A program made the position numbers and the translations under genes. From NCBI GenBank assembly GCA_015069095.1, contig SVJH01000024.1, positions 1-32,931 on the forward strand: a stretch of 32,931 bases of DNA. The letters are read 5' to 3'. The notes under the pieces were generated by a model. The model ran no database searches and was not told where the DNA came from. It saw only the letters and a list, made by a program, of their open reading frames with translations. This DNA comes from Oscillospiraceae bacterium (lineage in GTDB: Bacteria; Bacillota; Clostridia; UMGS1810). Positions 3,539-31,190 of the stretch are shown here, one piece after another; the first letter of the stretch is position 1, and every line of letters starts with the position of its first letter.

Positions 3539-5830
3539 ATGAACGAACAAATGACAGGTCTCGACCTTAAAATTGGTGAGGTAGCTGCCAGAATTAAAGA
3601 ATTAAGACATATAGAAGGCATTTCAAAAATAACTATGGCAAATCTTACAGGTGTTTCGCCAGAAGAATATGAAGCTTGTGAAAACGGTTCTCATGATTTA
3701 AGTTTTGCTTTTATTTACAGATGTGCTCTTGCTTTTAAAGTAAACGTTACTGATATTATTGAAGGTAGCAGCCCTAAACTTAAATCATACACTGTTACAA
3801 AAAGAGGTATGGGTACAGAAATTCAAAAAGCTCATGGTATGGTATACTATGGTCTTGCTTCTGAATTTAAAGACAGAGTATCTGAACCTTTATACGTTAA
3901 ATGCAAATATGATGAAGAAGCCGAAAGAAAAGAGATTGAACTTACAACTCACGAAGGTCAGGAACTTGACCTTATTATTAAAGGCTCAATGAAAATCCAA
4001 ATTGGTAGCCACACAGAAATTCTTACTGAAGGTGACTCTATTTACTACGATAGTTCTACCCCACACGGTATGATTGCTGTCGGCGGAGAAGATTTGGAAT
4101 TTTACGCTATCGTTCTTCAAGGCGGTATGGGTGTTGATGCTATTGGCGAAAAACAGTATAAAGTTAAGAAAAAAGCTGCAAGAAATGCTTATGCAACTAA
4201 TCGCGTATGGCAGAACTTTATTGATGTTACAGAAAACGAAAATGGTTCACTTGAAACAATTAACTTTAAAAATGAAGATAAATTTAACTTTGCATTCGAT
4301 ATAATTGACAAAATCGCAGAAAAAGATCCTCAAAAAGTTGCTATGATGCATCTTGACAAAGATCAGAATGAAAGAAAATTCACATTTATGGATCTTAAAA
4401 AAGAATCTAACAGATATGCAAATTACTTCTTATCACTTGGAATAAAACGCGGAGATAAAGTCATGCTTGTTCTTCGTCGTAATTATCAGTTCTGGCTTAC
4501 AATCCTTGCATTACATAAAATAGGTGCTGTTGCAATTCCTGCATCTAACCTATTAAAAGCACACGACTACAACTACAGATTTAAAGCAGCAAGTGTATCT
4601 ACAATTATTTGCAGTAGTCAAGGCGTTATGACAAAAGAAGCAGATGAAGGAAGCATTGGCTGTGATGAACTTGTTAACAAGATTATTGTTAACGGCGAAA
4701 GAGATGGCTGGAGATGTCTTGATAAAGAAGTAGTTGAATTTTCTGACGTATACGAAAGACCAGATGACGCTCCTTGCGGCGATGACGATATGCTTTTGTA
4801 TTTTACATCAGGTACAACAGGAAATCCAAAAATGGCACTTCACAGTTATAAATATGCTCTTGGACATTTCCACACTGCAAATTACTGGCATTGTGTTGAT
4901 CCTGACGGGCTTCACCTTACAATTTCAGATACAGGTTGGGCAAAAGCAGCCTGGGGTAAAATATACGGACAGTGGCTTTGCGAAGCAGGTATATTTGTTT
5001 ATGACTTTGACAAGTTTGAAGCAGCAGACATTCTTCCTATGTTTGCAAAATATCATATCACTACATTCTGTGCCCCACCTACTATGCTTCGTATGCTTAT
5101 TAAAGAAGACATCAGCAAATACGATATGTCATCTATTTCTCACACAACAACAGCCGGCGAAGCGCTAAATCCTGAAGTATTCAGACAACTTGAAAAACTT
5201 TTAGATGTTAAAGTTATGGAAGGTTTTGGACAAACAGAAACAACTTGTGTTATCGGAAACCTTTACGGAAGAGATTTTAAACTTGGCGCTATGGGTAAAC
5301 CTGTACCACTTTATGATGTTGACATAGTTGACTCTGAAGGCAAGAGTGTAAAAGCCGGTGAAAACGGAGAAATTGTTATTCGTACGTCAGAGCGTGTTCC
5401 TTGCGGTTTATTTAAAGGATACTATCGTGATGAGCAAAAAACAAAAGAAGTTTGGCACGATGGATTATATCACACAGGCGACGTTGCATACAAAGATGAA
5501 GACGGCTTCTATTACTACGTTGGTCGTGTTGATGACGTTATTAAATCATCAGGTTACAGAATTGGACCATTTGAAATCGAAAGCGTAATTATGGAACTTC
5601 CTTATGTTGTTGAATGTGGTGTATCGGCCGCTCCGGACCCTGTAAGAGGTCAGGTTGTTAAAGCAAGTATTATTCTTACAAAGGGTACTACTCCAAGTGA
5701 TGAACTTATGCTTGAAATTCAAAACTACGTTAAAAAGAATACTGCACCTTATAAATATCCAAGAATTGTTGAATTTAAAGAAAGTTTACCAAAAACAACA
5801 AGCGGAAAAATTATAAGATCACAGTTATAA
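3539..5830 (+). CDS. XRE-cupin-acyl-CoA synthetase fusion (MACS type), Val T-box unit
   Basis: The 763-residue product joins an XRE-type helix-turn-helix (about 10-65), a cupin barrel (about 125-195; GQELDLIIKGS, GDSIYYDSSTPHGM) and a full AMP-forming acyl-CoA synthetase (about 245-763). The ligase has the ATP loop TSGTTGNPKM (Lys431), the MACS-typical DTGWAKAAWG, GEALNPEV, EGFGQTET, GYRIGPFEIES and the C-terminal TSGK with catalytic Lys757. MACS/ACSM enzymes activate short, medium and branched acids with ATP and CoA. A GAAAGGA ribosome binding site at 3522-3528 supports ATG 3539. It is the only gene behind the Val T-box and is followed by a terminator, so it should rise when tRNA-Val is uncharged. 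Isobutyrate as substrate is an inference. Acetate or propionate are alternatives. Confidence 0.88.
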   Translation: MNEQMTGLDLKIGEVAARIKELRHIEGISKITMANLTGVSPEEYEACENGSHDLSFAFIYRCALAFKVNVTDIIEGSSPKLKSYTVTKRGMGTEIQKAHGMVYYGLASEFKDRVSEPLYVKCKYDEEAERKEIELTTHEGQELDLIIKGSMKIQIGSHTEILTEGDSIYYDSSTPHGMIAVGGEDLEFYAIVLQGGMGVDAIGEKQYKVKKKAARNAYATNRVWQNFIDVTENENGSLETINFKNEDKFNFAFDIIDKIAEKDPQKVAMMHLDKDQNERKFTFMDLKKESNRYANYFLSLGIKRGDKVMLVLRRNYQFWLTILALHKIGAVAIPASNLLKAHDYNYRFKAASVSTIICSSQGVMTKEADEGSIGCDELVNKIIVNGERDGWRCLDKEVVEFSDVYERPDDAPCGDDDMLLYFTSGTTGNPKMALHSYKYALGHFHTANYWHCVDPDGLHLTISDTGWAKAAWGKIYGQWLCEAGIFVYDFDKFEAADILPMFAKYHITTFCAPPTMLRMLIKEDISKYDMSSISHTTTAGEALNPEVFRQLEKLLDVKVMEGFGQTETTCVIGNLYGRDFKLGAMGKPVPLYDVDIVDSEGKSVKAGENGEIVIRTSERVPCGLFKGYYRDEQKTKEVWHDGLYHTGDVAYKDEDGFYYYVGRVDDVIKSSGYRIGPFEIESVIMELPYVVECGVSAAPDPVRGQVVKASIILTKGTTPSDELMLEIQNYVKKNTAPYKYPRIVEFKESLPKTTSGKIIRSQL

Positions 5831-5921: not shown

Positions 5922-6205
5922 TCAAAAAAACACAAAGATGCGGAATAGTACGCAAAACACTTTCGCCTAAGAGAGATGCCGGTTGCTGCGAGGCATTGGG
6001 AAAGATTTGCAGAACTCACCGCGGAGTGGTTGATGTGAAATTTGTAGTAGCGTCAAACGGGAACTCCCGTTACAGAGTTAAGATGTGTTGGCATCTAAAG
6101 TGCATCCTACATAGGGTGAAAAAGAGTGGTACCGCGGAAACATTGTAAATTTATAACGTTTTCGTCTCTTTGAATAAACAAGGAGTCGAAGGCGTTTTTT
6201 GTTTA
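5922..6205 (+). promoter_or_regulatory. T-box leader, predicted leucine (CTC) specifier
   Basis: Stem I base helix GCGG (5940-5943) pairs with CCGC (6019-6022). The opposing loop strand has the canonical AGTA (5947-5950), and the upper helix GCAAA (5952-5956) pairs with TTTGC (6006-6010). The specifier strand reads GAA-CTC-A, the textbook form, placing CTC (Leu) at 6015-6017. AGAGAG (5969-5974), a GGTTGCTG distal-loop motif and the T-box GAGTGGTACCGCGG (6124-6137) are present. The terminator pairs 6157-6172 with 6179-6194, then TTTTTT. The UGGU bulge fits A73 of tRNA-Leu. This is the clearest specifier call of the three. Confidence 0.93.
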
Positions 6206-7634: not shown

Positions 7635-10094
7635 ATGAAGATTGTATTTTCAACAAAGAATGTAAATCGTACATCATTTATTGATTTGTGCCGATATGCT
7701 TATGACTACGGATTTTCAGGTTTTGAAATATATGATGCATTAAAAGAAAAAACTATGCACGCTGACAGTATTTTACGTCGCGACCGCGTAGCAGATGCAA
7801 AAAGAAAACTTATAAACAGATCTATTTCTGTTTCAGCACTTCGTATGCCACATCCTATTGAAAGCGATGAAACAACAAGTGATTTAATTACAAAATATGT
7901 AGATATGGCTTCAAATGCGTCTATCTCTTATGTAATTGTCCGCATTGAAGAGGAAATATCGTTTGATTTATTAAAAGAAAAACTTTCTGATGCTATTAAA
8001 AGAGCCGAAAAAACAGGTGTAGAAATTTTATTTGAAACTGTTGGCTATCTTTCAAACACAGAAAAAGTTATTGATATTATTAACTTTTTCTCATCTTCAA
8101 AAATTGGCGCTGCATGGAATGTAAGAGGAACATATTTCGGTGCAGGCGAAACTTCAGAAACAACAATAAAAAGTCTTGGTGCTTATATTAAATATGTACG
8201 TCTTGGCGATATGAAAGATGGAAAAACAGTTCTTATCGGCGAAGGCGAACTTGATGTTGAAAAACTTATAAATGCGCTTTCTTCACTTAATTATGAAGGT
8301 TATATATGCGCAGCGTGGAACGAAGAAATTAACGATGCAGATATTGTACTTACTCATTTTGCAAACTATATTTCTTCACTTAAAAGAGAAAAGAAAAGTT
8401 ATGAACACGCATATTTTAACCGTCAGAAAACAGGTACATTTGTATGGAAAAAATATGATGTTATCGACGCAACTTTCTCTGATGTACTTGACAAAATGGC
8501 AGAAACTTATCCTGACCAATATGCATTTAAGTACCCTACCCTTGACTACACAAGAACTTACAAACAGTTTAAAAAAGATGTAGATGAATGTGCTGCTGCT
8601 CTTATATCTCTTGGTGTAAAAGCAGGCGACCATGTTGCTGTATGGGCTACAAATGTGCCTCAGTGGTATATTACATTCTGGGCTACTACAAAAATCGGTG
8701 CTGTACTTGTTACTGTAAATACGGCGTATAAAATAAACGAAATTGAATACTTACTTAAACAGTCTGACACTCATACACTTGTTATGATTGAATTCTGTAA
8801 AGATATAAACTACAAAGAAATAATTAAAGAATTATGCCCTGAACTTGAAAATCTTACTCCGGGCGAACCTCTTTATTCAAAAAATCTTCCGTTTTTAAGA
8901 AACGTTGTAACTGTAGGTTTTTCTATGGACGGATGTCTTTCGTGGGAAGAAATGCTCTCTCGTGCGCCTATGATTCCTATCGAAGAAGTAAGAAGACGCG
9001 CATCACTTGTAAAACCTGACGATGTTTGTAATATGCAGTATACATCGGGGACAACAGGATTTCCTAAAGGCGTTATGCTTACGCACAGAAACATTGTAAA
9101 CAACGGAAAAACAATCGGCGACAGAATGGATTTATCGACTGCAGACCGTATGATGATTCAGGTTCCTATGTTCCATTGTTTTGGAATGGTACTTTCTATG
9201 ACATCTATGATGACACACGGCGGTACACTATGCCCTATTCCGTATTTTTCGCCAAAATCATCTCTTGCTTGCGTAAATGACGAAAAAATTACTTGTTTTA
9301 ACGGTGTTCCTACCATGTTTATAGCAATGTTTAATCATCCTGATTTTGCAAAAACCGATTTTTCATATATGAGAACAGGTATTATGGCAGGTGCTAACTG
9401 TCCTGCAGATTTAATGCGCCGTGCGTCTGTTGAAATGAATATGAAAGAAATCATTTCTGTTTATGGCCAGACTGAAGCATCTCCTGGCTGTACTATGGGC
9501 GAAGTAAATGAAGACCTTGACCACAGAGTTGAAACTGTTGGCAGTGCATTTCCTGGTGTTGAATGTAAGATTATCGACCCTGAAACAGGATGCGAACTTC
9601 CCGACGGCGAAAGTGGCGAATTTGTTGCAAGAGGCTTTAATATAATGAAAGGCTACTACAAAATGCCTGAAGCAACTGCACAGGCAATCGACAAAGACGG
9701 CTGGCTTCATTCAGGCGATATTTGTATGAGAACACCTGATGGATATTATAAAGTTACAGGACGTCTTAAAGATATGATTATCCGTGGCGGCGAAAACTTA
9801 TATCCGCGTGAAATTGAAGAATTTTATCTTACAAATCCTAAGGTTCGTGATGTTCAGGTTGTTGGTGTTCCTGACGAAAAATACGGTGAAGAATGCTGTG
9901 CATGGATTATTCTTCATAAAGGCGAAACGGCAGATGAAAATGAAATGCGCGCATTTGGTATGGCTTCAATTGCATCTCACAAAGTACCAAAATACTTTGT
10001 ATTTGTAAATGATTTCCCAATGAATGCCGCAGGAAAAATACTAAAATATAAAATGCGTGATGAATCTATTGAAATGTTAGGCTTAAAAAAATAA
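7635..10094 (+). CDS. TIM-barrel (sugar-phosphate-isomerase-like)/acyl-CoA ligase fusion, Leu T-box unit
   Basis: The 819-residue product has an N-terminal AP-endonuclease-2/xylose-isomerase-like TIM barrel (about 1-255; LFETVGYLS, GEGELDVEKLINAL, YEGYICAAW). A complete fatty-acyl-CoA synthetase follows (about 275-819): TSGTTGFPKG with Lys478, PMFHCFGM, SVYGQTEASP, GYYKMPEAT, SGDICMR, GRLKDMIIRGGENLYPREIE and AAGK with Lys801. The barrel lacks several usual metal ligands (WN for WD, RLGD for HLKD), so it may bind and not isomerise. The ligase belongs to a different branch (FadD/medium-chain type) from the XRE-cupin paralogues. GAGGAGG at 7622-7628 fixes ATG 7635, 1 nt after the previous stop, so translation is probably coupled. 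Isovalerate as substrate is inferred from the Leu T-box. Confidence 0.87.
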   Translation: MKIVFSTKNVNRTSFIDLCRYAYDYGFSGFEIYDALKEKTMHADSILRRDRVADAKRKLINRSISVSALRMPHPIESDETTSDLITKYVDMASNASISYVIVRIEEEISFDLLKEKLSDAIKRAEKTGVEILFETVGYLSNTEKVIDIINFFSSSKIGAAWNVRGTYFGAGETSETTIKSLGAYIKYVRLGDMKDGKTVLIGEGELDVEKLINALSSLNYEGYICAAWNEEINDADIVLTHFANYISSLKREKKSYEHAYFNRQKTGTFVWKKYDVIDATFSDVLDKMAETYPDQYAFKYPTLDYTRTYKQFKKDVDECAAALISLGVKAGDHVAVWATNVPQWYITFWATTKIGAVLVTVNTAYKINEIEYLLKQSDTHTLVMIEFCKDINYKEIIKELCPELENLTPGEPLYSKNLPFLRNVVTVGFSMDGCLSWEEMLSRAPMIPIEEVRRRASLVKPDDVCNMQYTSGTTGFPKGVMLTHRNIVNNGKTIGDRMDLSTADRMMIQVPMFHCFGMVLSMTSMMTHGGTLCPIPYFSPKSSLACVNDEKITCFNGVPTMFIAMFNHPDFAKTDFSYMRTGIMAGANCPADLMRRASVEMNMKEIISVYGQTEASPGCTMGEVNEDLDHRVETVGSAFPGVECKIIDPETGCELPDGESGEFVARGFNIMKGYYKMPEATAQAIDKDGWLHSGDICMRTPDGYYKVTGRLKDMIIRGGENLYPREIEEFYLTNPKVRDVQVVGVPDEKYGEECCAWIILHKGETADENEMRAFGMASIASHKVPKYFVFVNDFPMNAAGKILKYKMRDESIEMLGLKK

Positions 10095-10980: not shown

Positions 10981-11262
10981 AATTTGAATATCACAAAGAA
11001 CGACTGTGACGAGGACGGTCGGATTGCGAAGCTTAAAGAGAGTTGCCGGTTGGTGCAAGGCAATGGCAGAACTTTCCAATGACTTATCACCTCCGAGTCG
11101 AAGGACCGAAAGCAAAATGCAAGTAGACTCCTTCCGTATTGCTGCGTAAAGGCAAAGGGCTTGTTAGAGTCCGGTAAGTGACGGAATTTTTTCCGTAATT
11201 TGAGTGGTACCGCGGGTTATACAACTCGTCTCAAAGTTTTCTTTGAGACGAGTTTTTTGTTT
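10981..11262 (+). promoter_or_regulatory. T-box leader, predicted isoleucine (ATC) specifier
   Basis: Stem I base helix GAGG (11011-11014) pairs with CCTC (11090-11093), the upper helix ATTG (11023-11026) with CAAT (11077-11080). The nine-base strand between CAAT and CCTC ends ATC-A, placing the specifier ATC (Ile) at 11086-11088, with GAG at 11095-11097 as in the other two leaders. AGAGAG (11037-11042), GGTTGGTGCAAG and the T-box GAGTGGTACCGCGGG (11202-11216) are present. The terminator is a perfect 14-bp stem (11223-11236 with 11241-11254) followed by Ts. The UGGU bulge fits A73 of tRNA-Ile. This leader resembles the Val leader in overall sequence, which suggests duplication with the gene behind it. 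Confidence 0.9.
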
Positions 11263-11319: not shown

Positions 11320-13620
11320 ATGGATTACAGTTTAAAAGAAGTCGCAGGAAGAATCAAAGACCTTAGAGAAGCAAAAGGTTATACAACTGAGCAACTTGCG
11401 AAACTAACAGGTGTATCTGAAGAAGATTACAAAGTACTTGAAATGGGCGAAACAGACTTTAGCTTTACATTTATTTACAAATGTGCAAAAGCCTGTGGCG
11501 TTGAAGTTGTTGATATTTTAGAAGGTACAAGTACAACACTTACATCTTTTGCAATTACAAGAAAAGGCGAAGGACTTAAAATTCTAAAAAAATACGGCGT
11601 TGAATATAATAACCTTGCTCCAAAATTCAAAGGAAAACTTGCAGAACCTTTCCTTGTTAAATTCCCATATATTGAACAGGAACAAAATGAACCTATCAAA
11701 CTAAGTTCTCATAACGGTCAGGAATTTGACGTTATTGTTAAAGGTTCACTTAAAGTTCAGGTAGGAAATCATATAGATATCCTAAACGAAGGAGATTCTA
11801 TTTTCTATAACAGTATTATTCCACATGGTATGATTGCAGTGAGCGAAGGCGGATGTGAATTTCACGCTGTTGTTTTAAATCCTCAGGACGGAACTGTTAG
11901 CGAAGAGTACCCTGAAACTCCATATGTTGCTCAAAAAACTGCAACAAAAGAAGCAAGCAAAGAAACAGTGGCAGACAAATTTATCACATCATCTTATGAT
12001 GAAAATGGTGTATTTAACGGAATTACATTTAAAAATGAAGATAAATTCAACTTTGCATTTGACTGCGTTGATGCTATTGCCAAAAAAAATCCTGACAAAC
12101 TTGCAATGATGTGGGTTGCAAATGACAAAACAGACAGACGCTTTACATTTAGCGATATGAAAAAATATTCTGCAAAAACTGCAAACTACTTTGAATCACT
12201 TGGAATCAAAAAAGGCGATACAGTAATGCTTGTACTTAAAAGACATTACCAGTTCTGGTTCTCAATGCTTGCACTTCACAAAATCGGTGCTATTGCTATC
12301 CCTGCTACAAATCAGCTTGTAGAACACGATTTTGAATACAGATACAAAGCAGCAAAAGTAAAAGCAATTGTATGTACAGCAGATGGCGATGTATCTTGCG
12401 AAGCAGAAAAAGCAGCAAAAGCATTCCCAGAAATGATTAAAATATTAGTTGGCGGTAAAAAAGACGGCTGGAATGATTTTAACGTTGAAATGGAACGTTT
12501 TAGCACACACTATGACAGAACTGAAAATACACCTTGCGGAAACGACCCTATGCTTATGCTATTTACATCAGGTACAACAGGTTATCCACGTATTGCAACA
12601 CATTCTTACAAATATGCACTTGGCCACTACCCTACTGCAAAACATTGGCACAATGTAAATCCTGACGGACTTCACTTTACAATTTCAGATACAGGCTGGG
12701 GTAAGGCTCTTTGGGGTAAACTTTACGGACAATGGCTCTGCGAAGCAGCACAGTTCACATACGACTTTGACAGATTCCATTCAGAAGATATCCTTCCTAT
12801 GTTTGCAAAATATAACATCACAACATTTTGTGCTCCGCCTACAATGTACAGATTTTTCATCAAAGAAGATTTATCAAAATACGACTTATCTTCTATTGAA
12901 TATGCAACAACGGCAGGTGAAGCTTTAAACCCTGAAGTATTCAATCAGTTCAAAAAAGCAACAGGTCTTACAATTATGGAAGGCTTTGGTCAGACAGAAA
13001 CAACACTTTCTATCGCAAACTTTGTAGGCTCTACACCAAAAATCGGTTCAATGGGCAGACCAAGTCCTTTATATGATGTTGTTGTTTTAGACCCAGATGG
13101 AAATGAATGTAAAACAGGTGATACCGGTGAAATCTGTATCCGTGTCAAAGACAATATTCCATGCGGATTGTTTATCGGCTACTATTTAGATGAAGAAAAA
13201 ACAAACGAAGTATGGCACGACGGTTACTATCATACAGGCGACCAGGCTACAATGGACGAAGATGGTTACCTTTGGTATGTTGGTCGTATCGATGACGTTA
13301 TCAAATCATCAGGCTACAGAATCGGACCTTTTGAAATCGAAAGCGTTATCATGGAGCTTCCATACGTTTTAGAATGTGCAATCACTCCTGTTCCTGATGA
13401 AGTGCGCGGTCAGATTGTTAAAGCAACTATCGTTCTTGTAAAAGGTACAGAAGGCACAGATGATCTTAAAAAAGAAATTCAGGAATATGTAAAAACACAT
13501 ACTGCACCTTACAAATATCCAAGAATTGTTGAATTTGTTGATGAACTTCCAAAAACAATCAGCGGTAAAGTAAGACGTGTTGAAATCCGTAAAAATGATA
13601 TGGAAAAATTAAATAAATAA
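11320..13620 (+). CDS. XRE-cupin-acyl-CoA synthetase fusion (MACS type), Ile T-box unit
   Basis: This 766-residue protein is a close paralogue of the product of 3539-5830, with the same order: XRE helix-turn-helix (about 5-62), cupin (about 120-190; GQEFDVIVKGS, GDSIFYNSIIPHGM) and MACS-type ligase (about 245-760). Ligase motifs are TSGTTGYPR, SDTGWGKALWG, GEALNPEV, EGFGQTET, GYRIGPFEIES and ISGK with Lys750. The usual lysine of the ATP loop is Arg424 here, a conservative change that may lower rate. An AAGGGAG site supports ATG 11320. It is the first gene behind the Ile T-box. 2-methylbutyrate is the substrate inferred from that; an archaeal MACS from Methanosarcina is known to prefer this acid. 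The helix-turn-helix may allow autoregulation. Confidence 0.88.
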   Translation: MDYSLKEVAGRIKDLREAKGYTTEQLAKLTGVSEEDYKVLEMGETDFSFTFIYKCAKACGVEVVDILEGTSTTLTSFAITRKGEGLKILKKYGVEYNNLAPKFKGKLAEPFLVKFPYIEQEQNEPIKLSSHNGQEFDVIVKGSLKVQVGNHIDILNEGDSIFYNSIIPHGMIAVSEGGCEFHAVVLNPQDGTVSEEYPETPYVAQKTATKEASKETVADKFITSSYDENGVFNGITFKNEDKFNFAFDCVDAIAKKNPDKLAMMWVANDKTDRRFTFSDMKKYSAKTANYFESLGIKKGDTVMLVLKRHYQFWFSMLALHKIGAIAIPATNQLVEHDFEYRYKAAKVKAIVCTADGDVSCEAEKAAKAFPEMIKILVGGKKDGWNDFNVEMERFSTHYDRTENTPCGNDPMLMLFTSGTTGYPRIATHSYKYALGHYPTAKHWHNVNPDGLHFTISDTGWGKALWGKLYGQWLCEAAQFTYDFDRFHSEDILPMFAKYNITTFCAPPTMYRFFIKEDLSKYDLSSIEYATTAGEALNPEVFNQFKKATGLTIMEGFGQTETTLSIANFVGSTPKIGSMGRPSPLYDVVVLDPDGNECKTGDTGEICIRVKDNIPCGLFIGYYLDEEKTNEVWHDGYYHTGDQATMDEDGYLWYVGRIDDVIKSSGYRIGPFEIESVIMELPYVLECAITPVPDEVRGQIVKATIVLVKGTEGTDDLKKEIQEYVKTHTAPYKYPRIVEFVDELPKTISGKVRRVEIRKNDMEKLNK

Positions 13621-13652: not shown

Positions 13653-15089
13653 GTGAAAAAAACATATGTAACTTCAATGCCAAACCATATCGGCGCATTT
13701 TTAAAAGCAAGCCAATGCTTTTCATCTCTTGGAATAAACATTACACGCGTAAGTTACAATAAAGCTGTTGATTCACACACCCTGTTTATTGATGCAGAAG
13801 GTACAGAGGAACAGTTAAAAAAGGCAGATACTAAGCTTGAAAAAATTGGTTATCTTCATAATAACACCAATAAATCAAGCATTGTATTGATAGAGTTTCA
13901 TCTTAAAGATGTTCCCGGAAGTGTAACAAATGTATTAACACTTATAAATGAATTTAATTTCAATATCTCATACATAAGTTCACAAGAAAACGGAACAGAT
14001 TATCAATATTTTAAAATGGGATTATACGTTGATGATTATGGTAAGATATCCGAGTTTTTAAAAGAAGCTGAAAAACTTTGCAAAGTTCGTGTAATTAACT
14101 ATAACAGTTCCGAAAAAGTTTATGATAACAGTATTTTTTATAATACCTACGTTTTAGGCCTATCACAAACAATGGGACTTTCAAAAGATGTAAGCAATAA
14201 ACTTTTGGTTCACATAAATCTTGCAATGCAAATGCTTGATGAACAAGGATTATCACCATATCGTACATTTGACAGCATCAGCAAATTTGCAGAACTATTA
14301 GGAAGTTCAAAAGGAAAAAACTTTAATCCCAGAATCAGTACTCATAAAATAACAGACAATACAGAAATAACACTTATCGAGCCACCTTGTGGAAGTAATA
14401 CTCTCATCATAAAAAGTTTAAACAAAGTATTATTTGTAGATAGCGGTTATGCGTGCTATAACGATGAGATGCTTAAAGTTTTTAGAAGGATTATTCCTGA
14501 TTTTGACACTATCGAAAAGACTATCCTTGTTACTCACGCTGATGTAGATCATTGTGGTTTATTACCATTATTTGATAAGATAATTACAAGCGTAAAAACT
14601 GCATCTTGCCTCAAAAAAGAATATGAAGGAAAAGACGGATACAGAGAATCAAACCCACTTCACAAACCATATATAAATATTTGTAAAATTCTCACATCAT
14701 ACAAGGCAGTTAACCCCGACAAAATAACACCGATGTGGAATAATACAGAAAAACTTACTGAACCTCTTACACAAATCGGATTTTTCGATTTTGGAGAATT
14801 GCATTTTGAAGTTTACGAAGGTAAGGGAGGTCATCTTCCAGGAGAAATTGTGCTTATTGATTACTTAAATCATATTGCAATTACTGGCGATATTTACATA
14901 AATACACATGGTCTTACTGCTCAACAAGCACAGTACAATCAGTATGCACCAATACTTATGACATCTGTTGATACAGATCCAAAACTATGTTTGGAAGAAA
15001 GAGGCGCAATTATGCAAAGACTTGGTGTTGGCAAATGGCAAATATTTGGTGCACACGGGTTTAAAAAAGATTATTCCGTTAATTTATAG
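13653..15089 (+). CDS. ACT-ACT-metallo-beta-lactamase-fold protein
   Basis: The 478-residue product begins with two ACT domains (about 4-70 and 76-146; the second has FHLKDVPGSVTNVL). After a linker comes a metallo-beta-lactamase-fold hydrolase (about 240-478) with THADVDHCG (His295, Asp297, Asp299, His300), GHLPGEIVL (His394) and ITGDIY (Asp413). The motif is HxDxDH, not the usual HxHxDH. ACT domains bind amino acids, so a hydrolase gated by a branched-chain amino acid is a reasonable guess; a thioesterase on acyl-CoA is one option but unproven. The start is GTG 13653 with a GAGG site at 13641-13644. It lies 32 nt after the Ile-unit ligase and is probably cotranscribed. Confidence 0.82.
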   Translation: MKKTYVTSMPNHIGAFLKASQCFSSLGINITRVSYNKAVDSHTLFIDAEGTEEQLKKADTKLEKIGYLHNNTNKSSIVLIEFHLKDVPGSVTNVLTLINEFNFNISYISSQENGTDYQYFKMGLYVDDYGKISEFLKEAEKLCKVRVINYNSSEKVYDNSIFYNTYVLGLSQTMGLSKDVSNKLLVHINLAMQMLDEQGLSPYRTFDSISKFAELLGSSKGKNFNPRISTHKITDNTEITLIEPPCGSNTLIIKSLNKVLFVDSGYACYNDEMLKVFRRIIPDFDTIEKTILVTHADVDHCGLLPLFDKIITSVKTASCLKKEYEGKDGYRESNPLHKPYINICKILTSYKAVNPDKITPMWNNTEKLTEPLTQIGFFDFGELHFEVYEGKGGHLPGEIVLIDYLNHIAITGDIYINTHGLTAQQAQYNQYAPILMTSVDTDPKLCLEERGAIMQRLGVGKWQIFGAHGFKKDYSVNL

Positions 15090-26978: not shown

Positions 26979-27007
26979 TTGAAATTAAAATTAAATTGTA
27001 GTATAAT
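26979..27007 (+). promoter_or_regulatory. Promoter of the hyd maturation operon
   Basis: TTGAAA (26979-26984) and TATAAT (27002-27007) are 17 bp apart. The start is expected near 27014, leaving a leader of about 143 nt before the first gene. Confidence 0.8.
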
Positions 27008-27013
27008 ATATGC

Positions 27014-27140
27014 GATAAGTTGAAAGTGAAAACTAACAGCAAATCAAACTATTACTACTGATTTTAAAAAGATTATTCTTTGAGAAAAAAGGACTTACAA
27101 TACTTAGTATTTTTACGTCCTTTTTTAAGGACGTTTTTTA
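27014..27140 (+). promoter_or_regulatory. Leader with mutually exclusive hairpins (candidate attenuator)
   Basis: A terminator (ACGTCCTT 27115-27122, AAGGACGT 27127-27134, then six Ts) lies between the promoter and the first hyd gene. Its left arm can instead pair with an upstream segment (AAAAAAGGAC 27085-27094 with GTCCTTTTTT 27117-27126), which would break the terminator; AATAC/GATT-type pairing at 27099-27111 (AATACTTAGTATT) stacks inside. A short frame from TTG 27020 ends in Tyr-Tyr-Tyr-stop (27050-27061) but has no ribosome binding site. The competing folds are seen directly; the signal is not known. Confidence 0.55.
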
Positions 27141-27156
27141 TTTTACGGAGGAACTT

Positions 27157-27414
27157 ATGGAAGAATTAAATAGGGTTGCACTTATTGGAATTATGATTGA
27201 AAACAAAGAAAGTGTGGGTAAAATAAATGATATCTTGCACACTTATGCAAATTATATAATCGGAAGAATGGGCATTCCGTATCAAAAACGAAACATTTCC
27301 ATAATAAGTGTAGCAATTGATGCACCAAATGATATAATAAATACTATTTCAGGAAAACTTGGTGCATTAGATGGTGTAAGTTCAAAAACGATTTATTCTA
27401 AATATTCAGATTAA
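27157..27414 (+). CDS. TM1266-family hydrogenase-system regulator
   Basis: The 85-residue product matches the small ACT/ferredoxin-like family called iron-only hydrogenase system regulator (TM1266 type): ALIGIMIENKES, VGKINDILHTYANYIIGRMGIP and the C-terminal SGKLGALDGVSSKT. Genes of this family sit at the start of HydE/HydG/HydF operons in clostridia and Thermotoga. The biochemical role is not settled; NikR/ACT-like ligand sensing is assumed. A CGGAGG site precedes the ATG, and hydE starts 9 nt after the stop. Confidence 0.9.
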   Translation: MEELNRVALIGIMIENKESVGKINDILHTYANYIIGRMGIPYQKRNISIISVAIDAPNDIINTISGKLGALDGVSSKTIYSKYSD

Positions 27415-27422
27415 GGAGATTT

Positions 27423-28463
27423 ATGAAAAGTTTAATTGATAAACTTGAAAGAGAAAATACTCTTTCAAAAGAAGAATGGATAACGTTATTAGAAAGCAAA
27501 ATTGACACCGAATATTTATTTGAAAGAGCAAGAAAAGTTCAAAGCGAAAATTACGGTAATGATGTTTATATAAGAGGTCTTATTGAAATATCTAACTATT
27601 GCAAAAACGACTGTTTATACTGTGGTATAAGATGCTCAAATAAAAACGTAAAAAGATATCGTCTTACAAAGGAAGAAATACTTTCGTGCTGCAAAAACGG
27701 TTATGAATTAGGATTTCGTACCTTTGTGCTTCAGGGTGGCGAAGACAAGTTTTATACAGACGATTTGATGTGTGATATTATTAAATCTATAAAGAAAAAC
27801 CATCCTGACTGTGCAATTACTCTTTCAATCGGTGAAAAAACAAAAGAAACATATCAAAAATATAAAAACGCAGGCGCAGACAGATATCTGCTCCGCCATG
27901 AAACTGCTGATAAAAAACACTACCAAAGCCTGCATCCTGAAAAAATGTCTTTTGAAAACAGACAAAAATGCCTTTTTGATTTAAAAGAAGTCGGATTTCA
28001 GGTTGGATGCGGATTTATGGTAGGCTCGCCATATCAAACAAGCGAAACACTTGCAAAAGATATGCTTTTTATTAAAAAGTTAAATCCGCATATGGTTGGG
28101 ATTGGTCCTTTTATTTCACAAAAGGATTCGCCATTTAAAGATATGAAAAACGGTAGTGCAGATAAAACACTTATTTTTGTTGCACTGCTTCGCCTTATGC
28201 TTCCAAATGCACTGCTCCCTGCTACAACAGCGCTTGGAACACTTTTGGAAGACGGCAGAGAAAAAGGAATATTGGCAGGGGCAAATGTTGTTATGCCAAA
28301 CCTTTCTCCAAAATTTGCAAAAGAAAACTATACACTTTATGACAACAAACTGTCAACCGGATGCGAAGAAGCATCGCACCTTTTAGAACTAAAAAAAAGA
28401 ATTGAAAAAATTGGTTATAAAATAGTTATATCGCGTGGAGACTACAAAGAAAGAAGGAAATAA
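27423..28463 (+). CDS. hydE: [FeFe]-hydrogenase H-cluster radical SAM maturase HydE
   Basis: The 346-residue product has the radical SAM CX3CX2C motif (Cys60, Cys64, Cys67 in NYCKNDCLYCGIRC), the family stretch FRTFVLQGGED, RHETADKKHYQSLHP and GCGFMVGSPYQT. HydE acts in assembly of the dithiomethylamine-bearing [2Fe] subcluster. Length is normal. An AAGGAG site sits right before ATG. It is second in the operon. The hydrogenase HydA itself is not in this window. Confidence 0.96.
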   Translation: MKSLIDKLERENTLSKEEWITLLESKIDTEYLFERARKVQSENYGNDVYIRGLIEISNYCKNDCLYCGIRCSNKNVKRYRLTKEEILSCCKNGYELGFRTFVLQGGEDKFYTDDLMCDIIKSIKKNHPDCAITLSIGEKTKETYQKYKNAGADRYLLRHETADKKHYQSLHPEKMSFENRQKCLFDLKEVGFQVGCGFMVGSPYQTSETLAKDMLFIKKLNPHMVGIGPFISQKDSPFKDMKNGSADKTLIFVALLRLMLPNALLPATTALGTLLEDGREKGILAGANVVMPNLSPKFAKENYTLYDNKLSTGCEEASHLLELKKRIEKIGYKIVISRGDYKERRK

Positions 28464-28465
28464 AA

Positions 28466-29884
28466 ATGTATGATGTAAAATCAAGCAAAGCAGAAGAATT
28501 TATAAACCATGAGGAAATTTTAGAAACATTAAAATACGCCGATGAGCACAAACGTGATGAAAAACTTATAAGTGAAATAATAGAAAAAGCAAAACTAAAA
28601 AAAGGTCTTTCTCACAAAGAGGCATCTGTACTTTTAGTGTGCGAACTTGAAGATAAAAACGAAGAAATTTACACTTTAGCGCGCGAAATCAAGCAAGAAT
28701 TTTACGGCAACAGAATTGTTATGTTTGCCCCTCTTTATCTTTCAAACTACTGCGTAAACGGATGCGTATACTGTCCGTATCATTTAAAAAACAAAAATAT
28801 AAGACGTAAAAAACTTACTCAGGAAGAAGTTAAAAATGAAGTTATTGCTCTTCAGGATATGGGACACAAACGCCTTGCAATTGAAGCAGGCGAAGACCCT
28901 GTCAACAATCCTATTGAGTATATCATAGATTGCATAAAAACTATTTATTCTGTAAAACACAAAAACGGTGCTATAAGACGTGTAAATGTTAATATTGCTG
29001 CAACTACTGTTGAAAACTACAGAAAACTTAAAGAAGCAGGAATCGGAACATATATTCTGTTTCAGGAAACATACCACAAAGAAAGCTATGAAACACTCCA
29101 TCCTACAGGTCCAAAACATAATTATGCATATCATACAGAAGCAATGGACAGAGCGATGGATGGCGGAATTGATGACGTTGGTCTTGGAGTTTTATTTGGT
29201 CTTGAACTTTACAAATATGAATTTGCAGGACTACTTATGCACGCAGAACATTTAGAAGCCAAATACGGCGTAGGTCCTCATACAATAAGTGTTCCAAGAA
29301 TACGCCCTGCAGACGACATTGACCCTGATACTTTTGACAACTCTATTGATGACGATACTTTTGCAAAAATCATTGCTTGTATAAGAGTTGCAGTTCCATA
29401 TACAGGAATGATAGTTTCTACAAGAGAAAGTCAAAAATGCCGTGAAAAAGTATTAAAACTTGGCGTTTCGCAAATAAGCGGCGGTTCAAAAACAAGCGTT
29501 GGTGGATATGTTGAGCCCGAAAAAGAAGAAGAAAACTCTGCCCAGTTTGACACAGTTGACAACAGAACACTTGACGAAGTTGTAAACTGGCTTATGAAGG
29601 AAGGTTACATTCCAAGTTTCTGTACTGCGTGCTACCGTGAAGGCAGAACGGGCGACAGATTTATGACACTTCTTAAAAACGGACAGATTTCAAACTGTTG
29701 TCATCCAAACGCACTTATGACACTTAAAGAATACTTAGAAGACTATGCATCGGAAGATACTAAAAAAATCGGAAGCGAACTTATTGAAAAAGAGCTTCTA
29801 AACATTCCAAACGAAAAAGTAAGAGAAATCGCGATAGATAACATTAAAAACATTCACGAAGGAAAACGTGATTTCAGATTTTAG
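28466..29884 (+). CDS. hydG: [FeFe]-hydrogenase radical SAM tyrosine lyase HydG
   Basis: The 472-residue product has the radical SAM motif (Cys96, Cys100, Cys103 in NYCVNGCVYC) and the C-terminal second cluster site CTACYREGRTGDRF with a later Cys in ISNCCHPNAL. HydG cleaves tyrosine to p-cresol, CO and cyanide for the H-cluster. The ATG is 2 nt after the hydE stop with a GAAGGAAA site, so the two are translationally close. Length and motifs are standard for the family. Confidence 0.97.
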   Translation: MYDVKSSKAEEFINHEEILETLKYADEHKRDEKLISEIIEKAKLKKGLSHKEASVLLVCELEDKNEEIYTLAREIKQEFYGNRIVMFAPLYLSNYCVNGCVYCPYHLKNKNIRRKKLTQEEVKNEVIALQDMGHKRLAIEAGEDPVNNPIEYIIDCIKTIYSVKHKNGAIRRVNVNIAATTVENYRKLKEAGIGTYILFQETYHKESYETLHPTGPKHNYAYHTEAMDRAMDGGIDDVGLGVLFGLELYKYEFAGLLMHAEHLEAKYGVGPHTISVPRIRPADDIDPDTFDNSIDDDTFAKIIACIRVAVPYTGMIVSTRESQKCREKVLKLGVSQISGGSKTSVGGYVEPEKEEENSAQFDTVDNRTLDEVVNWLMKEGYIPSFCTACYREGRTGDRFMTLLKNGQISNCCHPNALMTLKEYLEDYASEDTKKIGSELIEKELLNIPNEKVREIAIDNIKNIHEGKRDFRF

Positions 29885-29893
29885 GAGAAAATT

Positions 29894-31060
29894 ATGAGTT
29901 TAAATGATGCACCTAAATCCGAAAGAATTCACATTGGTTTTTTCGGAAAAACAAATGCAGGAAAATCGAGTGTGATAAATAAGGTAACGTCGCAGAATTT
30001 GTCGATTGTATCAGATATTAAAGGCACTACAACCGACCCTGTTTTAAAAAGTATGGAACTTCTTCCTATTGGTCCTGTTGTTATAATTGACACCCCCGGA
30101 CTTGACGATAAAACTGACCTTGGGAAAATGCGAATAGAAAAGACAAATGAAATACTTAGAAAAACAGACATCGCCGTTATTGTAATTGATGCAAATGATA
30201 ATGATGAAAATACGATAAATCTTATAAAAGAGAGAAATATTCCATATATTATCTGCTACAACAAATGCGATATTAAGTTAAGAGAAAATCTTAATGATAA
30301 CGAAATATGTGTCAGCGCCAAAACAGGCGAAAATATTGAAAAATTGAAAGAACTTATTGCAAGTAAAGCCGGAAACAATAAAAGTAACAAAAAAATTGTA
30401 TCGGATATTTTAAACGAAGGCGACATTGCACTTTTAGTTATCCCGATTGACGAAAGTGCACCAAAAGGAAGACTTATTCTACCTCAACAGCAAACTATAC
30501 GAGATTTGCTTGACGGTGGAAATATGTGCATTTGTGTTAAAGACACAGAACTTGAACAGGCAATTAAAGCTTTTAAAGATAAAGTTAAAATTGTAATAAC
30601 AGACAGTCAGGCGTTTAAAAAGGTTGCGAAAATTGTTCCGGATGACATTCTTCTTACATCTTTTTCGATTCTATTTATGCGATACAAAGGCGAGCTTGAT
30701 GGTGCTGTAAAAAGTGTAAAAAAACTTGATACACTTTCTGATGGCGATGTTGTTCTTATAAGCGAAGGATGTTCGCATCACAGACAATGTAACGATATTG
30801 GAACAGTTAAGATGCCAAATTGGATTAAGGAATATACAAAAAAAGACATTAAATTTGAGTTTACAAGTGGCGGAGAGTTCCCTTTAGATTTATCGAAATA
30901 CTCACTTGTTGTTCACTGTGGCGGATGTATGCTTAATGAAACTGAAATGAAAAACAGAATAAATATTGCAAATGATCAAAATGTTCCAATTACAAATTAC
31001 GGCATCACCATTGCACATATAAATGGAATACTTGAAAGAAGTATTAAACCATTTATATAA
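29894..31060 (+). CDS. hydF: [FeFe]-hydrogenase maturation GTPase HydF
   Basis: The 388-residue product has a GTPase domain (P-loop FFGKTNAGKSS near 17-26, DTPGLDD, NKCD), a dimerisation domain and a C-terminal cluster-binding part with GCSHHRQ and VHCGGCM, the CxH...CxxC pattern of HydF. HydF is the scaffold that carries the [2Fe] precursor to HydA. It starts 9 nt after hydG with an AGGAGAA site and ends the operon. Confidence 0.97.
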   Translation: MSLNDAPKSERIHIGFFGKTNAGKSSVINKVTSQNLSIVSDIKGTTTDPVLKSMELLPIGPVVIIDTPGLDDKTDLGKMRIEKTNEILRKTDIAVIVIDANDNDENTINLIKERNIPYIICYNKCDIKLRENLNDNEICVSAKTGENIEKLKELIASKAGNNKSNKKIVSDILNEGDIALLVIPIDESAPKGRLILPQQQTIRDLLDGGNMCICVKDTELEQAIKAFKDKVKIVITDSQAFKKVAKIVPDDILLTSFSILFMRYKGELDGAVKSVKKLDTLSDGDVVLISEGCSHHRQCNDIGTVKMPNWIKEYTKKDIKFEFTSGGEFPLDLSKYSLVVHCGGCMLNETEMKNRINIANDQNVPITNYGITIAHINGILERSIKPFI

Positions 31061-31152: not shown

Positions 31153-31164
31153 GAAATAAAACAA

Positions 31165-31190
31165 AAAGACGCTCATAAGAGCGTCTTTTA
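31165..31190. terminator. Bidirectional terminator, hydF/flavodoxin
   Basis: A 10-bp perfect stem (AAAGACGCTC 31165-31174, GAGCGTCTTT 31179-31188) with an ATAA loop and A/T flanks on both sides lies between the converging hyd operon and flavodoxin gene. Confidence 0.88.

Follow-up and report, generated by a model that had tools for sequence, protein, structure and literature searches.

The RNA leader ahead of the [FeFe]-hydrogenase maturation operon in a 32,931-nucleotide stretch of Oscillospiraceae bacterium DNA (contig SVJH01000024.1, hereafter the window) is probably a protein-dependent transcription attenuator, with the first gene product of the operon, TM1266, as the likely factor holding its conserved hairpin. 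At the level of the family, comparison of relatives makes it reasonably probable that TM1266 proteins are RNA-binding feedback repressors, in which a fold like those of NikR C-terminal and ACT domains has been turned from DNA to RNA. Their operator would be a new family of two-fold symmetric hairpins controlling hydE, hydF, hydG, aspA-hydF, and TM1266 by termination or by ribosome blocking, at near as well as distant sites. The hairpins appear to form a new family of structured RNAs, and the proteins are most likely a new family of RNA-binding regulators.

The features of the leader and operon are listed in Table 1. If the predicted promoter is used, the RNA would start near 27014-27015. This promoter is one of four 11/12 matches among 35 promoter-like matches in the region, a number not above chance (38.4 in shuffles). 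Terminator-like matches are in slight excess (7 versus 4.0 in shuffles), and the folding z score of the leader is -2.08. Judged alone, the leader is modest evidence at the level of its sequence, and the comparison with relatives is decisive. It does contain the parts of a transcription attenuator, namely a promoter, a terminator ahead of the first gene (22 nt separate the end of the stem-loop from that gene), and a competing antiterminator. At the other end of the operon, a strong bidirectional terminator of 11 pairs (31164-31189) separates hydF from a convergent flavodoxin-like gene.

Table 1. Features of the leader and the hydrogenase maturation operon in the window.
Feature	Positions	Strand	Basis or remark
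Promoter, sigma-70-type, TTGAAA-17-TATAAT	26979-27007	+	Consensus match only, 11/12
Leader RNA of the TM1266-hydE-hydG-hydF operon	27015-27156	+	Start inferred from promoter
Mini-frame TTG...TAT TAC TAC TGA	27020-27061	+	No ribosome-binding site; YYY in 1/39 leaders
Conserved symmetric hairpin (proposed TM1266 operator)	27058-27091	+	R3 25.3 bits, E 7.1e-6; covariation in relatives
Hairpin CUGA box	27058-27061	+	
Hairpin P1 UUUU	27062-27065	+	Followed by AA
Hairpin P2 AAAGA, paired with UCUUU	27068-27072, 27077-27081	+	Followed by GA
Hairpin P1' GAAA	27084-27087	+	
Hairpin AAAG box	27088-27091	+	
Antiterminator 5' arm AAAAAAGGAC	27085-27094	+	Overlaps P1' by 3 nt and the entire AAAG box
Small hairpin AATAC-TTA-GTATT inside the antiterminator	27099-27111	+	Predicted pairing
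Intrinsic terminator stem-loop, then TTTTTATTTT (T tail)	27115-27134	+	Sequence
Antiterminator 3' arm GTCCTTTTTT, within terminator left arm and loop	27117-27126	+	Pairing
TM1266-family protein gene (PF21699 / TIGR03959), proposed RNA-binding repressor	27157-27414	+	Profile scores and predicted fold
HydE	27423-28463	+	TIGR03956, 569.5 bits
HydG	28466-29884	+	TIGR03955, 945 bits
HydF	29894-31060	+	TIGR03918, 545.7 bits

Elsewhere in the window, two T-box leaders were found on the + strand. The one at 5926-6172 (143 bits) precedes an ORF named from its translation as isopropylmalate/homocitrate-synthase-like, and the one at 10997-11236 (98.2 bits) precedes an ORF of 766 aa. Judging from translations, two similar long ORFs (3539-5830 and 11320-13620) encode an apparent XRE DNA-binding domain and cupin fused to an AMP-forming acyl-CoA synthetase, and the ORF at 13653-15089 seemingly joins ACT-like repeats to a metallo-beta-lactamase fold.

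The segments AAAAAAGGAC and GTCCTTTTTT form a 10-bp antiterminator pairing. Since GTCCTTTTTT also supplies bases of the terminator's left arm and loop, terminator and antiterminator are mutually exclusive. The original prediction of an attenuator ahead of this operon, with AAAAAAGGAC and the terminator right arm AAGGACGT (27127-27134) as competitors, was therefore sound: the two states exclude each other, and the architecture is kept in relatives. Overlooked at that time was the hairpin at 27058-27091; its 3' strand and the antiterminator arm share part of their sequence. Constrained folding of the RNA to 27126 gave the antiterminator as the free minimum (-19.5 kcal/mol), and with P1 and P2 forced a 7-bp antiterminator remained (-17.2 kcal/mol). 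This shorter pairing fits beside P1, so exclusion would require that the AAAG box be held too. For the RNA to 27142 the free minimum was an extended antiterminator-like fold (-22.3 kcal/mol), with the plain antiterminator at -21.7 and the hairpin plus terminator at -21.4 kcal/mol. The antiterminated and hairpin-plus-terminator folds thus lie within about 1 kcal/mol of each other, with read-through slightly favoured and formed first. Given such near-balanced states, a factor clamping the entire hairpin could tip the outcome to termination.

The same competition was recognized in relatives, where the P1'-AAAGG segment can base-pair with the terminator of its own locus, in the left arm and loop. 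We evaluated this cognate duplex in 43 leaders, in 36 of which a terminator was placed; the finder placed none in L062, L084, L088, L004, L066, L127, and L006, that of L127 being visible by eye. Over the 36 leaders the cognate duplex averaged -14.87 kcal/mol, versus -11.15 (sd 0.48) with the terminators permuted, and none of 20,000 permutations was as low. A leader's own terminator ranked first in 6 of the 36, the window included, and among the top five in 19, and it came 19th or lower in four leaders with poor cognate pairing (L061, L008, L034, and L070).

The relatives were drawn from the best 80 of at least 584 hydG loci, together with the TM1266 genes of the genomes of the family, 14 of 16 of which have one. 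Many TM1266 leaders share the arrangement CUGA-N4-RA-hairpin-GA-N4'-AAAG followed by a terminator just ahead of the gene. A strict pattern with N4 fully paired, run over both strands of 116 sequences (115 loci and the window), gave 19 matches; four were the window site under four names, and the remaining 15 lay in such leaders or directly ahead of hydG. DNA similarity searches with the leader against the 16 genomes returned, besides itself, only short weak matches, which indicates an element conserved in structure and not in sequence. Rfam 15 placed no family at gathering score over the leader, either in the window or in the loci of 18 relatives; the lists below gathering held nothing credible and resembled chance, and the T-box model (RF00230) had no gathering-level match in the leader.

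A covariance model built from 14 sequences including the window (R1) was searched against 94 sources (750,462 bases), and all 64 matches at E <=0.19 had the same orientation as the hyd genes (both matches of L006 on the minus strand). A second search, over 53 of the 94 sources picked from the first, gave 61 matches at E <=0.1, of which 14 were the training set. One of them, L062:2961 within the hydE region, is probably due to chance, yet was kept in the 61-row alignment and in the resulting model R2; L021 and L051, with long inserts in their hairpins, were outside this search and counted as motif loci. The 61-row alignment was fitted to the model; in it, 95.6% of cells are paired, double changes occur in 7 of the 8 pairs, and covariation reaches 0.559 versus 0.144 in shuffles (0/500 as high); sliding the partners abolishes it. 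A structure-free MAFFT alignment of 18 relatives, with the window left out, shows the same hairpin (98.6% of cells pair; covariation 0.660 versus 0.176, 0/500 as high), with double changes in 5 pairs, a number reached by 85 of 500 shuffles of this small set. Covariation among the relatives is strong in P1. Model R3, derived from the latter alignment, had its best match in the window at 27055-27097, and the next best had an E of 0.0029; since R3 was built without the window, the membership of the window is not circular.

Several weak model matches were set aside as chance, namely those inside ORFs (G002:C42, G011:C55, G014:C12, G309, G311:C15, and G328) and one flanked by convergent genes and followed by no gene of its own (G004:C77). 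A search for additional copies in the genome of the window, scoring 150 out of 1194 candidates, overlooked even the site in the window itself. Among the literature matches listed, no title or abstract start describes this RNA, for which an earlier description as an orphan motif is possible, and the main texts of PMC8632094 and PMC2965389 do not mention hydrogenase. The hairpin family is apparently new and undescribed.

The architecture, CUGA-P1-RA-P2-loop-P2'-GA-P1'-AAAG, precedes the hydrogenase-maturation genes of many Clostridia, and in the window it reads CUGA(27058)-UUUU-AA-AAAGA-UUAU-UCUUU-GA-GAAA-AAAG(27091). Acetanaerobacterium elongatum (L022) and Lutispora saccharofermentans (L071) are among the organisms with the motif in their leaders. 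It has a two-fold pseudo-symmetry, CUGA-P1-RAAG-loop-CUGA-P1'-AAAG, in which P1 is flanked on both sides by like, outward-facing CU-GA/RA-AG internal loops. Over the 61 rows, the 5' box holds C in 59, U in 60, G in 52, and A in 61, the 3' box holds C in 45, U in 61, G in 56, and A in 57, and the AAG parts are nearly invariant. The terminal loop, on the other hand, varies in length and sequence, and P1 is UUUU/GAAA in the window versus, for example, CACC/GGUG or CCCG/CGGG in relatives. The P1 of the window, made of A-U and G-U pairs throughout, is weak, and P1 and P2 together amount to -3.9 kcal/mol. Two leaders carry tandem copies of the hairpin (L034 3824-3903 and L068 2496-2585), which suggests cooperative control.

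We placed 68 matches relative to genes, four of them weaker than E 0.2. Among the 27 assigned to hydG, 22 end 3-15 nt ahead of the hydG start, against the ribosome-binding site. Both layouts, terminator and ribosome-binding site, would give control of the same sign, with the hairpin held closed meaning off. A survey of the class (293 genomes, model R2, E <=5e-4) scored 22 candidates per genome, so that absences mean little. It returned 56 matches in 52 genomes, four of which (G019, G031, G080, and G113) had chance matches inside ORFs, leaving a genuine motif in 48 of the 293. With sites placed from locus DNA or from match coordinates, 47 of the 48 lay no more than about 200 nt upstream of a maturation gene, the targets being TM1266, hydG or hydG-like genes, hydE (G103, G231, and G281), hydF (G020 and G190), and aspA-hydF (G091 and G265). 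The sole target outside the maturation genes was in G236 (L168, G236:C47), where a motif near 2535 on the minus strand abuts the ribosome-binding site of an operon for an ABC importer; it was retained as a site and is unexplained. No site was found upstream of hydrogenase structural genes in this limited class survey.

Some sites stand apart from the TM1266 gene, for example ahead of hydG in G008 (L119), hydE in G103 and G231 (L139 and L142), and aspA-hydF in G091 and G265 (L170 and L171), as would be expected for a diffusible protein. In the two aspA-hydF operons the hairpin is accompanied by a terminator, and TM1266 is encoded elsewhere in the genome. According to PMC11736057, AspA is able in vitro to supply ammonium for the dithiomethylamine ligand of the H-cluster and is frequent in hyd operons, so aspA would fit the same regulon. 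Records carrying an Alphaproteobacteria, Ilyobacter, or Phascolarctobacterium label (L059, L064, L080, L041, and L053) also show the hairpin ahead of hydG, reflecting either transfer along with TM1266-hydG or mislabelled bins. In L071, a NiCo riboswitch (8855-8950, 59.8 bits) lies downstream of the hyd operon.

The motif and TM1266 occur together. Of the 80 hydG loci, 54 include a TM1266 gene; 48 of them carry the motif (E <=0.19) versus 2 (L034 and L058) of the 26 without such a gene (p 9.6e-13). Whole genomes of those 26 encode TM1266 elsewhere in nine cases, including those of L034 and L058, and a genome search of the 26 and four more added one motif, right ahead of the distant TM1266 gene of G306. 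By genome, the RNA site accompanies the gene of its proposed binder in 51 of 63 hydG genomes with TM1266 versus 0 of 17 without (p 5e-10); a weak match in one of the 17 (G328) lies inside an ORF and is not genuine. The remaining 12 TM1266 genomes had no counted motif, some of them with weak candidates. When the 30 loci without a counted motif were rechecked with R3, five matches at E <=0.2 appeared, none of which was added to the counts. Four were weak candidates in TM1266 genomes (L039; L033, just ahead of hydG; L060, before TM1266; L036, behind the operon), and the fifth, antisense in the TM1266-less locus L078, was taken as chance. A possible site about 590 nt ahead of hydE in L039/G311 was likewise left out.

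In the class survey, TM1266 was present in 46 of the 48 motif genomes. The two whose assemblies lack it (G026 and G178) have congeners with TM1266, and since many genomes are drafts its absence may be an assembly gap. The corresponding Fisher table (46/184 versus 2/109) is blind to which genomes have hyd genes and was not used as evidence. On a tree of 81 HydG proteins, which predates the G306 motif and scores L025 as lacking the motif, at least 10 changes in TM1266 presence and 16 in the motif are needed. Well-supported branches provide six independent contrasts, in which, on average, the motif goes along with TM1266 in 5.2 and runs counter to it in 0.0 (median p of the sign test 0.0625, not significant). 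Independent branches therefore agree in direction, short of significance, and a third trait could underlie the presence of both TM1266 and the RNA.

The window protein belongs to the TM1266 family (PF21699 / TIGR03959, structure 2nzc) by both curated models (TIGR03959, 110.5 bits, cut-off 60.8; PF21699, 106.7 bits, cut-off 27) and by fold, whereas the NikR_C profile PF08753 scored 12.6 bits, below its cut-off of 22. Its predicted structure (mean pLDDT 95.3) is closest to the solved structure of the Thermotoga maritima TM1266 protein (2nzc, Z 15.6), followed by the NikR C-terminal domain (Z about 11-14), ACT domains (10-11), and ribosomal protein S6 (about 9.8), the last being an RNA binder. 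The ferredoxin-like sensor fold is thus common to NikR C-terminal and ACT domains and the window protein, with identities to NikR that are low (6-21% among the matches listed). This fold is better known for sensing than for RNA binding, and NikR has an additional ribbon-helix-helix DNA-binding domain, for which TM1266, only 85 residues long, has no room. Nine residues are invariant in 47 TM1266 sequences (R6, N24, R37, G39, P41, G66, G69, G73, and K77) and two nearly so (Y42 and K67). Fold likeness alone is no proof of function; a sensor fold with conserved basic residues would suit a two-fold symmetric RNA. Family names read 'iron-only hydrogenase system putative regulator', with no mechanism in the name, and no title or abstract start among the literature matches listed gives a mechanism for TM1266. 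A table on the effects of CO2 in Thermotoga neapolitana lists the regulator, hydG, and hydE side by side, all with raised values (PMC7039931), and speaks to co-expression only.

These observations are consistent with the following mechanism, in which we infer TM1266 binding, repression as the sign of control, and a ligand sensed by TM1266. By default, the strand 27085-27094, transcribed ahead of the terminator, would pair with 27117-27126, breaking the terminator so that RNA polymerase continues. Clamping of the hairpin, with its CUGA and AAAG boxes both engaged, would withhold this strand; the terminator would then form and the operon would be off. The clamping factor would most likely be TM1266, a small NikR-C/ACT-like sensor devoid of a DNA-binding domain, recognising the two like CUGA/RAAG internal loops beside P1, possibly with each subunit of a dimer taking one loop. 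The maturases would then be under feedback control. Where a hairpin is set against the hydG ribosome-binding site, as in some other genomes, it would block translation, and in others the hairpin stands ahead of hydG, hydE, hydF, or aspA-hydF at a distance from the TM1266 gene.

Protein-dependent attenuators include PyrR and TRAP of Bacillus subtilis and the ribosomal-protein leaders L10(L12)4 and S6:S18. In these systems a short RNA site bound by a protein competes with an antiterminator, leading to termination and feedback on the protein's own operon, in some cases at the level of translation. Likewise, the conserved RNA site in the window overlaps the antiterminator, and we propose that a bound protein acts there on its own operon. 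Unlike in PyrR and TRAP, the RNA is a two-fold symmetric CUGA-P1-RAAG hairpin, the protein is TM1266, and the pathway is H-cluster assembly; the RNA target of the TM1266 family is a proposal of the present analysis. Literature bearing on attenuators and leaders of these kinds includes PMC4538822 and PMC4027176. Moco/Wco riboswitches, which precede some hydrogenase operons according to PMC5651825 and PMC9481103, are likewise RNA leaders near hydrogenase-related genes, but the RNA is different, and the Rfam search of the leader found no Moco RNA. T-boxes and amino-acid leader-peptide attenuators have the terminator/antiterminator logic in common with the present leader, which has neither a T-box match nor a conserved leader peptide.

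The original prediction had also seen a link between tyrosine and hydrogenase assembly, in which a ribosome on a Tyr-Tyr-Tyr leader peptide would govern the attenuator. The frame is indeed there, from TTG at 27020 to TGA at 27059-27061 with TAT TAC TAC at its end, and HydG consumes tyrosine. Two weaknesses named along with that proposal are real: the frame has no ribosome-binding site, and the Tyr codons (27050-27058) are too far from the antiterminator arm (from 27085) for a stalled ribosome to reach it. With a predicted RNA start about 6 nt ahead of the TTG besides, translation is unlikely, and the mini-frame is probably not translated. Its UGA stop is the conserved UGA of the CUGA box, so that the conserved element overlaps the end of the frame. 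Among 39 motif-bearing leaders, YYY mini-frames were found in the window only and YY mini-frames in two (window and L051): relatives keep the hairpins and not the Tyr codons. Tyrosine-dependent attenuation is thus extremely improbable and was rejected; the tyrosine link is unneeded as well as unsupported. That the terminator works without switching, ending a short stand-alone RNA or damping a constitutive promoter, is also hard to credit. Promoter and terminator alone could yield an RNA of about 120 nt, and neither kind of feature clearly exceeds chance there, but regulated switching is indicated by the preference of the antiterminator for its own terminator across 36 leaders, by the covarying hairpin that overlaps this antiterminator, and by the hairpins at ribosome-binding sites of hydG.

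A different question is what holds the hairpin. A riboswitch for a metabolite or metal (such as an H-cluster precursor, SAM, iron, or an amino acid), with TM1266 merely one of the regulated genes, is unlikely, though a case can be made for it from the highly conserved internal-loop purines, the use of terminators or ribosome-binding sites as expression platforms, the tandem copies in L034 and L068, and a single-pathway regulon, all of them typical riboswitch traits. A riboswitch would not need TM1266, yet the search found no genuine motif in any of the 17 TM1266-less hydG genomes, and the motif is also found where TM1266 is encoded elsewhere in the genome. Moreover, one two-fold symmetric hairpin of about 34 nt, whose terminal loop varies and which shows no obvious junction, resembles the site of a protein dimer. 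Binding by another maturation protein (HydF, HydE, or HydG) would fit a regulon made up almost wholly of maturation genes, but HydG is present in all 80 genomes by construction and the motif was found only in those with TM1266, which makes such a binder quite doubtful. The co-occurrence thus favours TM1266 as the factor that would hold the hairpin.

If this reading is true, it adds one RNA family and one RNA-binding protein family to those described. With an RNA operator defined, TM1266 becomes open to direct tests of both its binding target and the signal it may sense, be it iron, an H-cluster precursor, or an amino acid. Control of this kind would bear on how the supply of H-cluster maturases is matched to need, and on the tuning of hydrogen metabolism in gut Clostridia.
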